NCBI GenBank assembly: GCA_030682385.1 | Contig: JAUXOG010000026.1 | Location: 1 to 50,876 of the forward strand | DNA: 50,876 bases | Reading direction: 5' to 3' | Origin: Bacteroidota bacterium | GTDB lineage: Bacteria > Bacteroidota > Ignavibacteria > UBA10030 > BY39 | Shown here: positions 8,682 through 12,727 of the stretch, piece by piece | Numbering within the stretch: the first letter of the stretch is position 1 | Layout: every line of letters begins with the position of its first letter | Made by a program: the position numbers and the translations under genes | The notes under the pieces: model-generated | The model's input: the letters and a program-made list of their open reading frames with translations, nothing else | Told to the model about the DNA's origin: nothing | Databases searched by the model: none

Positions 8682-9635
8682 TTATTTCCTTTTTAAAACT
8701 TTTTTAACGGCGGCAATAATTCCGTCTTTCGCAACGCCATATTTCTTCATGAGTTCCGAAGCCGTTCCTGATTCTCCGAATGTATCACGCACAGCGACAA
8801 ATTCTTGTGGAACAGGAAAATTCTGAACTAAAACTTCAGCAACAGCACTACCAAGTCCGCCGTGCAACTGATGGTCTTCCGCTGTTACAATTGCACCGGT
8901 CTCTTTTGCTGCGGCGACAATTGCTTCTCTATCTATCGGTTTTATTGTGTGCATATTTAACACTCGAACACTTATACCCTCTTTGGAAAGCTCTTCTTCT
9001 GCCAAGATTGCTTCCCAAACTTGAAGTCCGCATGCAATTATGGTAACGTCGGTGCCGTCTATGAGTTTCACCGCTTTTCCTATTTCAAATTTTGCCGATT
9101 CATCATTAAACACAGGTGTATTGTCTCTAAAGAATCTAACATAAGCGGGACCTTTATAGTTTATTACGGCTCGTATCATTTTCTTTGTCTCAACATAGTC
9201 CGACGGGCTGAGCACAATCATGTGAGGAAGTCCGCGCATCAAAGCGATGTCTTCCAACGACTGGTGAGTGGCTCCATCCTGCCCGACTGTAAGACCGCAA
9301 TGCGATGCGCAGATTTTCACATTCAGATTACTGTAGGCTACAGATTGGCGGATTTGGTCGTAGGGTCTGCCGGTTGCGAAGACGCCGAATGTGGAAGCAA
9401 TAGGAATTTTTCCGGCAATTGCTAAACCGGCTGCGGTTCCAATCATATCTTGTTCGGCTATGCCAACCGAGAAAAAACGGTTCGGAAAATTTTTCATAAA
9501 CAAATCGGTTTTTACCGAACCCGTTACGTCAGCGCCAATCACTACTACGTCGGGATTCTCACGTCCGATGTCCAACAGGGCTTCACCGAATGCTGACCGT
9601 GTGGCTTTTAATTCTTTACTTACTAATTTTGGCAA
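8682..9635 (-). CDS. transketolase, C-terminal subunit
   Basis: A 317-residue protein with the pyrimidine-binding and C-terminal domains of transketolase. It completes the split enzyme with the N-terminal subunit at 11855-12727. Transketolase moves two-carbon ketol units between sugar phosphates using thiamine diphosphate. Glu61 in GIAEQDM is the cofactor-activating Glu of this family. GQDGATHQSLED and PSDYVETKK are characteristic. The start is a TTG at 9635, preceded by AAAGGA eight bases away; no better ATG is near. In other genomes the two subunit genes are normally adjacent; here about 2.1 kb of unrelated nuclease genes separate them. Confidence 0.93.
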   Translation of the reverse strand: MPKLVSKELKATRSAFGEALLDIGRENPDVVVIGADVTGSVKTDLFMKNFPNRFFSVGIAEQDMIGTAAGLAIAGKIPIASTFGVFATGRPYDQIRQSVAYSNLNVKICASHCGLTVGQDGATHQSLEDIALMRGLPHMIVLSPSDYVETKKMIRAVINYKGPAYVRFFRDNTPVFNDESAKFEIGKAVKLIDGTDVTIIACGLQVWEAILAEEELSKEGISVRVLNMHTIKPIDREAIVAAAKETGAIVTAEDHQLHGGLGSAVAEVLVQNFPVPQEFVAVRDTFGESGTASELMKKYGVAKDGIIAAVKKVLKRK

Positions 9636-9729
9636 GTTATTTTCCTTTCGTTTTACAAATTATAATTCTACAAACATTTGTACAGTTCGTATTGAACATC
9701 TTGAGCAAACAAATCGCTTTTTATGTTCT

Positions 9730-10041
9730 TCAATTTCTTGATTGTTGATTTAATGGCTTCTCCTGATTGGTCGATACCAATCCAGTTTCTATTTCAAAAA
9801 TAGAAGAAATATTCGTTGTTAGATACAGTTCAGATGCTTTTTCAATTACTGCTTCTATAGTATCGTCAAATGTTTTATAATAGTTCTTATCATCAATAAA
9901 ACGATTAAGGACTTCAATTAAACAAACTAAAAAGTATGCGTTACAATAAGGCAACTTCTCCTTTATTTTTTGAAGAAATATAAAATCAAGATTGCTGATA
10001 AGTTTCTCCTCTAATACTTCTAAATGATTTTGTTTGTTCAT
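9730..10041 (-). CDS. unknown small protein, last gene of nuclease cassette
   Basis: A 103-residue protein I do not recognise. It is predicted mostly helical and acidic, with no signal peptide, membrane segment or obvious metal site. Its ATG overlaps the stop of the HrgA-like nuclease gene by four bases (ATGA at 10038-10041), so the two are translationally coupled. That makes a partner, inhibitor or regulatory subunit of the nuclease plausible, but this is inference from position only. About 95 bases separate it from the transketolase C-subunit gene. Confidence 0.7.
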   Translation of the reverse strand: MNKQNHLEVLEEKLISNLDFIFLQKIKEKLPYCNAYFLVCLIEVLNRFIDDKNYYKTFDDTIEAVIEKASELYLTTNISSIFEIETGLVSTNQEKPLNQQSRN

Positions 10042-10907
10042 ATTACTTTATCAAAGTATTTTGTATTAATAGATTTTATTGAAATGATGATACCAGTAGA
10101 CTTAATAAAAGCATAAAAGTCATTATTCATCTCTGAAAGAAAATTCATAAAATTAATATCGACAACTTCTTTCGCTCTTGCAGAAACAATAATTTCGCTC
10201 TTTATTGGATTATCCAAATTTAATTTTATCACCCCTATTCCATATCCATTGTTTAGTCGCATAAGATTTGAAAGAAAGATTGCATCAGTATCTAAATCGC
10301 CAACAACTAAGTATCCAAAATTTGCCCAACTCGAATTTGAGACAGTTTGAAAATATGCTTCAGTAATATTGCTTTTATCAATTTTAAGTTTTAATTCAAA
10401 GCTATAGAACTCTATTACCTTAGTGGAAAGCATACCAAGTTTCTCAACTTCTTTCTGAAATAAAGGATTCAAATTTAAGATAACCGGATTCACACCTACA
10501 ATATCAGGGTTTGTCCATTTACCAATTTTATCTTTCTTTTTAGCCACTTTAAGAGCATTTATTGTCTTACAATAAACATTAAATCTTACTTTAGCGAACT
10601 TAACTAGGTAAGGATGAAGACTGGATTCCGGAATAATTTTTACTTCAGGAATATTTTTAGTTTTAAGGAAAAATCTTTTTTGGCTTTGCTTGTGTTTTCC
10701 TTCAAAGAATATTCCAAAAACAGGGCTACTTCCTCCTGAGTATTTTGTCAAACATCTTGCAACAGCAGATAAAGGGACTTGAACAGTATGTAACTCTTCA
10801 CAATATTTGTATTGTTTATGTTTTTCAGCTAAAGCTAAAATCTCTCCTTGTTTCAAAGGAGATTCTGAATGTTCTAGAATATCAATAATGAGTTCTATTA
10901 ACTTCAT
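10038..10907 (-). CDS. HrgA-like protein: HARE-HTH plus PD-(D/E)XK nuclease
   Basis: A 289-residue protein. The N-terminal 80 residues look like a HARE-HTH winged helix (helix LIELIIDILEHSESPLKQGEILALAEKH, then a turn and a second helix at PLSAVARCL), a domain found in HrgA and other restriction-linked proteins. The central part shows a PD-(D/E)XK pattern: Pro134-Asp135 (TNPDIVGV), Glu171-x-Lys173 (FYSFELKLKI) and a following Gln187 (AYFQTVSNSSWANF). HrgA was described in Helicobacter as a gene replacing a type II restriction gene. The gene starts three bases after the restriction-endonuclease gene and overlaps the next gene by four. Assignment rests on motif reading; the target is unknown. 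Confidence 0.75.
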   Translation of the reverse strand: MKLIELIIDILEHSESPLKQGEILALAEKHKQYKYCEELHTVQVPLSAVARCLTKYSGGSSPVFGIFFEGKHKQSQKRFFLKTKNIPEVKIIPESSLHPYLVKFAKVRFNVYCKTINALKVAKKKDKIGKWTNPDIVGVNPVILNLNPLFQKEVEKLGMLSTKVIEFYSFELKLKIDKSNITEAYFQTVSNSSWANFGYLVVGDLDTDAIFLSNLMRLNNGYGIGVIKLNLDNPIKSEIIVSARAKEVVDINFMNFLSEMNNDFYAFIKSTGIIISIKSINTKYFDKVI

Positions 10908-10910
10908 AAT

Positions 10911-11645
10911 TTAATTTAGATAAATTTTGGTTATATCCCTATACATTTTATTGTTACCTGTAATATATAAAACTCCATCCAAGACTGCGATCGTTGTTGC
11001 TTTCACATTTTTGGTTTGTAAAGTACTAATAGCATCATTAAACTGTGCATTTTGATGTCCACCGAAGTCGGTTAAAAATTTTGCTTCACCAATTACATAT
11101 TTACTATTGAAACGAGCAACAAAGTCCAAACCTTTGTCTCGTTTGTAATTCAATTGTTCTCTCGCATAATCCATCAGTTCACGATCACTGCCATTGAGAA
11201 TGGCGTCTTTTTTTGAATCCACAAATTCATCAAGACCTATTGGTTGTATACCAAGAGATTTCTTATTTAACCATCGTTTGAAAAATGGCCCAATTTGTCT
11301 ATTTGTTTCTTTTGGCTCGGAACACCTCTCAAAGATTTTTCCAAGTCCCATTTCGTAGAGCCGTCCACAAACGCGATTCACTGTCTTAGGATTTCGTTCA
11401 ATTGAAGATGAGTCTCGTTTCAAGTAGGCAATGTAAGAGTCCTTGATTGGAAAAAGATTTAGATTGAGAAGTCCCTGCATCAGTGTTTGATTATCTTTTT
11501 TCTTGAATGCCTTTTCTATTTTTCCCCAAATTTCTTCGTCGATTTCTCTTATTCCTTCAGGAATTGTTGGATAGACTTGAAAAAGGTCATCCAGATAAGA
11601 TTTCTGGTTGGCGTATTCGATGCTTAATTTTGTCCAATAGTTCAT
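10911..11645 (-). CDS. type II restriction endonuclease-like PD-(D/E)XK nuclease
   Basis: A 244-residue protein with the active-site pattern Asp174 (GLDFVARFN), then Glu187-Ala-Lys189 (IGEAKFLTDFGGHQNAQFNDA), the PD-(D/E)XK core of type II restriction enzymes. The length and the G-(L)-D-F...GEAKF-x-T-D-x-G-G arrangement suit a Tsp45I-like family, but the family is not certain. The N-terminal half is probably the recognition part. No cognate DNA methyltransferase is encoded in the window. It is 9 bases downstream of the 65-residue gene and 3 bases upstream of the HrgA-like gene. It either depends on a methylase elsewhere or acts in a methylation-independent system. Confidence 0.78.
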   Translation of the reverse strand: MNYWTKLSIEYANQKSYLDDLFQVYPTIPEGIREIDEEIWGKIEKAFKKKDNQTLMQGLLNLNLFPIKDSYIAYLKRDSSSIERNPKTVNRVCGRLYEMGLGKIFERCSEPKETNRQIGPFFKRWLNKKSLGIQPIGLDEFVDSKKDAILNGSDRELMDYAREQLNYKRDKGLDFVARFNSKYVIGEAKFLTDFGGHQNAQFNDAISTLQTKNVKATTIAVLDGVLYITGNNKMYRDITKIYLN

Positions 11646-11654
11646 AAGAAGTTT

Positions 11655-11852
11655 TTATTTAAATATAAATCTTTTTTGCCATTCTTGGAAAACTTTCATA
11701 TATCCTTCCCATACTATGAGATCATCCCATAGCTGGAAGTTTTCTTGCTTATCCTTTTTTAGTCTCTTAGAAATTTTTTCGAAATTGCCACCCCACTTTT
11801 GCTCGAATAAAAGTATCTTTTTCTGAAATTCCTGCATTTCTCTAAATTCCAT
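11655..11852 (-). CDS. unknown 65-residue protein, first gene of nuclease cassette
   Basis: A short, helical, charged protein rich in Lys, Glu, Phe and Trp, with no recognised domain. A longer frame using TTG at 11870 overlaps the transketolase gene. The ATG at 11852 is preferred because AAAAGGAG lies just before it and the upstream transketolase stop is only two bases away, so ribosomes could reinitiate. It is the first of four tightly packed genes ending at 9730. A role as antitoxin-like partner or specificity factor for the downstream nucleases is conceivable but unsupported. Confidence 0.7.
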   Translation of the reverse strand: MEFREMQEFQKKILLFEQKWGGNFEKISKRLKKDKQENFQLWDDLIVWEGYMKVFQEWQKRFIFK

Positions 11853-11854
11853 AT

Positions 11855-12727
11855 TCACTCCTTTTCCCAATCAAATTTTATAAAATCACCGAATGATGTG
11901 GGTGCAATTTCATTCAATGCTATTTTGCCCTGCTCATCGTTCGGCGGAACACCGTGCCACTTGTAGTCGTTGTGCATAATGCTTACGTTGTTACCCATAA
12001 AAGTTTTAGCAATGATTACAGATGGTTTATCGGTGCAGTCCTTTGTCTTTTCAATCGCTTTCAAAAATTCTTCAATCGAATGTCCGTTAATTTCTAAAAC
12101 ATTCCAGCCGAATGCCCGCCATTTATCTGCGAGCGGTTCTAAACCCATAACGACATTTGTAAAGTTATCTATTTGACAATTATTTCTATCCACAATAGCA
12201 GTCAAATTCGAAACTTTATGATGCGATGCAGTCATTGCCGCTTCCCAAATTTGTCCTTCGTTCAATTCGCCGTCGCCGTGGAAAACAAAAACCCGGCTAC
12301 TTTTATTATCTAATCGTAAAGCCAATGCTGCACCGACTGCCACCGACAACCCCTGACCCAAAGCGCCTGAAGCAATTTCAACACCGGGAACACCGTGCGT
12401 GTGAACGGGAGCCGGATGACCTTGAAGTTTCGTATCCAACTTTCTCAATGTAGCCAACTCGCTCAACGGAAAATAACCGGCGCGTGCAAGTGATGAGTAC
12501 CAAATCGGAGCGTAATGTCCTGCTGATAGAAAGAAATAATCGCGATCTTCCCACTTCGGATTTTTAGGGTCTATGTTCAATACATTAAAATAAAGCGAGG
12601 CAAACATTTCAGCCGCTCCAAGCGGTCCGCCTGTGTGTCCCGATTTTGAAATCATCAACATCTTAATTACATCACGGCGAAGCTGGCGGCTCATCTCATA
12701 CAATTTTTCGATACTAAATTTATTCAT
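11855..12727 (-). CDS. transketolase, N-terminal subunit
   Basis: A 290-residue protein carrying the thiamine-diphosphate PP domain. The cofactor/Mg motif begins GDG at 151-153 (FHGDGELNEGQIWEA) and ends with Asn182/Asn183 in VDRNNCQ. Conserved His31 (SGHTGGPLG), His71 and His104 (QGHPAP) fit transketolase. It pairs with the C subunit at 8682-9635. The ATG overlaps the plsY stop by one base (TAATG), so the genes are coupled. The nuclease cassette begins two bases after this gene's stop and uses the same strand, so it is likely expressed from the transketolase promoter. Confidence 0.94.
   Translation of the reverse strand: MNKFSIEKLYEMSRQLRRDVIKMLMISKSGHTGGPLGAAEMFASLYFNVLNIDPKNPKWEDRDYFFLSAGHYAPIWYSSLARAGYFPLSELATLRKLDTKLQGHPAPVHTHGVPGVEIASGALGQGLSVAVGAALALRLDNKSSRVFVFHGDGELNEGQIWEAAMTASHHKVSNLTAIVDRNNCQIDNFTNVVMGLEPLADKWRAFGWNVLEINGHSIEEFLKAIEKTKDCTDKPSVIIAKTFMGNNVSIMHNDYKWHGVPPNDEQGKIALNEIAPTSFGDFIKFDWEKE

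Follow-up and report, generated by a model that had tools for sequence, protein, structure and literature searches.

Tsp45I, the prototype of a family of type II restriction-modification (R-M) systems, recognises the sequence GTSAC. In H. pylori, an HrgA-type gene takes up part of a type II R-M locus; hrgA has been described in strains that are without the nuclease gene hpyIIIR (PMC4615327, PMC4687069). Restriction endonuclease genes also occur in solitary form, with no complete cognate methylase nearby, and such genes rarely arise by degradation of complete systems (PMC4176335). Fusions of a restriction endonuclease (REase) with a HARE-HTH domain have been described beside DNA-modification genes, and HARE-HTH domains have been proposed to discriminate modified DNA (PMC10853773). 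A cell that loses its methylase while the neighbouring restriction enzyme is active should die, so that it is an open question how R-M systems fall apart, and a literature search on the decay of R-M complexes returned nothing further.

The locus described here lies in a window of 50,876 nucleotides (the whole stretch of DNA that was analysed), which belongs to a draft genome in 140 contigs. Judged from its sequence, we file it as a variant, rather than a full member, of the Tsp45I-type type II R-M systems, because an intact methylase and a complete nuclease are both absent. It shares with that family the type of nuclease (PF06300), the nuclease-then-methylase order seen in relatives and the avoidance of GTSAC, but its nuclease has no C-terminal tail and its methylase is reduced to a stump of 41 codons. 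Whereas hrgA in H. pylori stands where hpyIIIR is absent, the HrgA-like gene of this locus stands in the place of the nuclease gene's end and of the first part of the methylase gene. It resembles the solitary nuclease genes (PMC4176335) in the lack of a complete cognate methylase, but here decay in place can be traced through an empty site, an intermediate and the stump. The HrgA-like protein appears to have the domain architecture of the REase-HARE-HTH fusions (PMC10853773), but no phosphorothioate modification genes were seen beside its gene. Our best explanation, to which we assign a probability of roughly two in three, is that the cassette is a decayed and patched Tsp45I-type (GTSAC) R-M system and embodies no new defence design.

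An earlier note on this DNA had placed four minus-strand open reading frames (ORFs) between the genes for the N- and C-terminal halves of transketolase (tktN and tktC), and its coordinates were correct; the ORFs encode 65, 244, 289 and 103 aa (Table 1). The first ATG of the cassette lies two bases past the tktN stop codon, and an ATGA overlap joins the 289-aa and 103-aa ORFs, both as the note had described. Its statement that the cassette interrupts genes that are normally adjacent was borne out by comparison of tkt loci: tktN and tktC are side by side in G296 and G297, two genomes of the same family, and the cassette is thus an insertion in this lineage. In G298, another member of the family, the relevant contig (L223, corresponding to G298:C172) begins just inside tktC, which makes the insertion site unreadable; this genome may have, or may once have had, the cassette.

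Table 1. Features of the cassette and its flanks, in reading direction (window coordinates).
Feature	Position	Strand	Basis and remarks
tktN, transketolase N-terminal subunit	11855..12727	-	Flank on the left in reading direction; conserved as ORF and in gene order in L136, L148 and L149
65-aa ORF, no assigned function	11655..11852	-	N-terminally shortened relative of the 85-aa ORF of G299
Tsp45I-family restriction endonuclease (putative), 244 aa, without the C-terminal 16 residues	10911..11645	-	Pfam PF06300, PADLOC REase_II
HrgA-like protein, 289 aa: HARE-HTH-type N-terminal domain and PD-(D/E)XK nuclease domain (predicted)	10038..10907	-	Homologues, motif, model
103-aa ORF: ≈82 residues in common with G299, then out-of-frame methylase DNA	9730..10041	-	G299 alignment, frame translation
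Cognate DNA methylase, reduced to a stump of its last 41 codons plus stop	9668..9793	-	Identity to L059, PADLOC MTase_II, G299 alignment
tktC, transketolase C-terminal subunit	8682..9635	-	Right flank in reading direction; ORF and order conserved

The 244-aa protein matched the Pfam family Tsp45I with 387 bits (cut-off 25; E = 5.9e-116) and the PADLOC profile REase_II with E = 1.7e-125. These matches identify the first of the two PD-(D/E)XK-type nucleases noted earlier as Tsp45I-like, a type II restriction enzyme of that family. It retains the presumed catalytic residues D174, E187 and K189, and the body of the protein departs at a single position (residue 160) from the columns that are at least 95% conserved in the family. 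What it lacks is a C-terminal tail of 16 residues, which is present in all 77 full-length relatives (77/77) and missing from the nuclease of both members of the genus, the window genome (G000) and G299. When a full-length relative was modelled, the tail came out well ordered (pLDDT >90), as one strand and one helix, and its loss presumably lowers the activity of the nuclease.

The HrgA-like protein itself had no match in Pfam, NCBIfam or PADLOC. Homologues, motif and model nevertheless agree with the earlier description of a second PD-(D/E)XK-type protein with an N-terminal HARE-HTH-type domain: HARE-HTH was matched by 15 of 21 aligned homologues (best E = 2.9e-15), the residues P134-D135, E171, K173 and Q187 of a PD...ExK...Q motif are invariant in 21 sequences, and the predicted structure has a nuclease-type domain preceded by a winged helix that carries an extra helix. 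Neither this protein nor the Tsp45I-like nuclease had a credible relative in a sequence search against solved structures or a match in phage records, and structure searches with the two models returned weak matches only, with nothing at E ≤ 0.001; those of the HrgA-like model include restriction enzymes and winged-helix proteins.

The expectation that the four genes would recur together in other genomes did not hold. The set was found in G000 and G299 only, with no co-occurrence outside this genus, and an HrgA-like gene was present in none of 80 Tsp45I loci (0/80) within the flanks examined. Beyond the genus, the closest HrgA-like homologue (72% identical) is solitary, and at six further HrgA-like loci a look for motifs revealed no R-M neighbours. 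A conserved four-gene module was rejected because of this restriction to one genus.

The 80 loci were obtained by searching a single genome of each species for nuclease relatives. An intact methylase gene lies directly downstream on the same strand in 79 of them, and the eightieth is cut off by a contig end right behind the nuclease gene; the methylase is also directly downstream in four relatives from the same order outside the genus. In the window, there is no intact methylase at this place. The 41 codons found instead (9793-9668) encode a sequence 59% identical to the methylase of L059 and cover positions 365-393 of the 425 in PADLOC MTase_II. Part of the stump overlaps the 103-aa ORF in a different frame, and the final ≈21 residues of the 103-aa ORF are therefore a misreading of methylase DNA. 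The earlier note was right that no intact methylase adjoins the nucleases, but it had overlooked the stump in stating that there was no methyltransferase. Its view of the missing methylase as part of the mechanism is not supported, since the cognate gene adjoins the nuclease in 79/80 relatives and survives here as the stump. This finding and the failure of the four genes to co-occur elsewhere are the two outcomes that the note itself had named as refuting its proposal. A system that is methylase-free by design was rejected on the strength of the stump, these relatives and the intermediate in G299.

In G299, the order at the same site is tktN, an 85-aa ORF, the nuclease gene, the HrgA-like gene, a 92-aa ORF, a methylase frame of 257 codons and tktC. 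The nuclease, which is tail-less in G299 as well, is 91% identical between the two species, and the HrgA-like protein is 95% identical. The methylase frame of G299 has lost its N-terminus and starts past the DPPF motif, and 644 bp that are present inside it are missing from the window. From this comparison, we take G299 to represent an intermediate in the decay of the methylase at the same locus. The two species share both the point at which the nuclease ends and the HrgA-like start that comes next, and the HrgA-like gene and the small gene after it occupy the place where the 16-residue tail of the nuclease and the start of the methylase would be expected.

The small ORFs at the two ends had been put forward as regulators or immunity proteins, and we found no marks of either role. 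The 65-aa ORF aligns with the 85-aa ORF of G299 over 60 codons with 80% identity, is missing 25 codons at its start relative to that counterpart and differs from it at the end. It had no family match in profile searches, and 198 genomes of the phylum yielded a single convincing homologue from beyond the genus, while the 103-aa ORF has weak homologues only. An immunity or regulator role was rejected for both, given the few homologues, the shortened start of the one and the methylase DNA at the end of the other.

An enzyme that has been resident and active in a genome for a long time should leave its recognition site rare. Words were counted in samples of 69-431 kb per genome, with expectations from a maximal-order Markov model, and avoidance was ranked among the 512 strand-symmetric 5-mers. 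In 431 kb of the window genome, there were 84 GTSAC sites against 212 expected, and the resulting observed/expected ratio (o/e) of 0.40 was the lowest of the 512; in G299, GTSAC likewise ranked first of 512 (o/e 0.41). The site was not avoided in G296 (o/e 1.05) or G297 (1.00), both of which are without the nuclease gene, and the ratios were 0.26, 0.55 and 0.69 in three genomes of the order that have nuclease and methylase. This pattern is indirect evidence, and fits GTSAC as the probable site of this enzyme; the scarcity of the site throughout the genome is consistent with an enzyme that was once active and had resided there for long. The window genome still has about two sites per 10 kb, so that an unprotected and fully active enzyme would still cut it many times. 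In the same samples (L154-L193), AGSCT is also strongly under-represented in the window genome (o/e 0.47) and in G299 (0.54), and so, too, are GGCC and CTAG. The shortage of AGSCT may point to a further restriction system in this lineage.

The nuclease family, the missing tail, the stump, the intermediate, the empty sites and the avoidance of GTSAC are brought together most simply by three events in order: insertion of the R-M pair, replacement by the HrgA block and deletion in the window species. In this genus, a complete Tsp45I-type (GTSAC) pair would have entered the site between tktN and tktC. The HrgA-like gene and a small gene, as one block, would then have replaced the 16-residue end of the nuclease and the start of the methylase, including its catalytic motif DPPF, probably in a single step. 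Because nuclease and methylase would have been damaged together, the cell could have survived the loss of the methylase. The further deletion of 644 bp in the window species would have removed nearly all that remained of it. Today, the nuclease has most likely ceased to cut host DNA effectively, and the HrgA-like protein would most likely work alone, as a nuclease sensing how DNA is modified. The locus would then offer a traceable route of R-M breakdown, from empty site through an intermediate with a truncated methylase to a stump, with joint damage to the two genes as a plausible step, and would be an example of the breakage and patching of R-M systems, not of a novel type of defence.

Several observations count against this explanation. 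GTSAC is avoided to some degree in G298 (o/e 0.58, on a sample of only 69 kb), where no nuclease was found. The damaged genes also look constrained. The tail-less nuclease has no stops and family-typical conservation in both species, with a dN/dS of 0.068 between them, and the truncated methylase frame of G299 contains no stop codon. We simulated neutral drift that began at the common ancestor of the HrgA block, at about 0.1 per lineage. Under these conditions, the nuclease stayed free of stops in both lineages with P ≈ 0.003 and its identity fell to ≈63%, compared to the observed 91%, and the methylase frame of G299 stayed stop-free with P ≈ 0.02. Such outcomes are unlikely under neutral drift. 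The nuclease gene, by its synonymous divergence, is a mosaic between the species: dS is 0.16 in codons 1-61 and saturated in codons 184-244 (window 10911-11645 against L136:7717-8451). It is 0.25 in the HrgA-like gene and about 0.47-0.51 in the flanking genes, and the drop at the boundary between the nuclease and HrgA-like genes suggests recombination there. Because of the mosaic, with dS running from 0.16 to saturation, dating the loss of the methylase and the damage to the R-M genes by synonymous divergence is impossible, and the HrgA block may be no guide to the age of that damage. This leaves two readings, damage more recent than it seems or a shortened nuclease that retains a selected role.

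A selected role would agree with the proposal of a methylase-independent defence unit in the earlier note. The tail-less nuclease would have been co-opted into such a unit jointly with the HrgA-like protein and kept there by selection, and the HrgA-like protein, as a sensor, or the small protein might restrain or license the nuclease. The low dN/dS of both proteins (0.083 for the HrgA-like gene), the conservation of the shortened nuclease in both species and the tight packing of the genes would all be accommodated by such a unit. We nevertheless consider it unlikely: the pairing is confined to this genus, active cutting at GTSAC would strike the host at the sites that it still carries, the small ORFs are degraded or near-orphans, and the constraint on the nuclease cannot be placed in time relative to the loss of the methylase.

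No more probable, in our estimate, is a nuclease that is still active while a GTSAC methylase elsewhere in the genome protects the host, the local methylase having become redundant and been lost. The conservation and apparent constraint of the nuclease agree with this, as do 24 matches to the N6/N4 DNA methylase family in the window genome. Several of these matches are partial or contain stop codons, which indicates that R-M genes are numerous and turning over in this genome, but none of the other methylases exceeds about 28-31% overall identity to the Tsp45I-type methylase, and the nuclease is without a tail common to every full-length relative. An assembly error as the source of the missing methylase, conceivable in a draft genome, is very improbable, because the independently assembled G299 has the same order at the same site and an N-terminally truncated methylase.

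Beside hrgA of H. pylori, the locus adds a case of an HrgA-type gene inside a type II R-M locus. Plasmid proteins annotated as HrgA are 31-40% identical to the HrgA-like protein over residues ≈85-267 (E down to 5e-28). On the plasmids pVPS43 of Vibrio parahaemolyticus (L216:5683-6618) and pZF2-cfr of Proteus terrae (L217:5650-6579), an HrgA-annotated gene lies between type I S and R genes, with an integrase adjacent, and some type I systems may include an HrgA-type protein as an accessory component.
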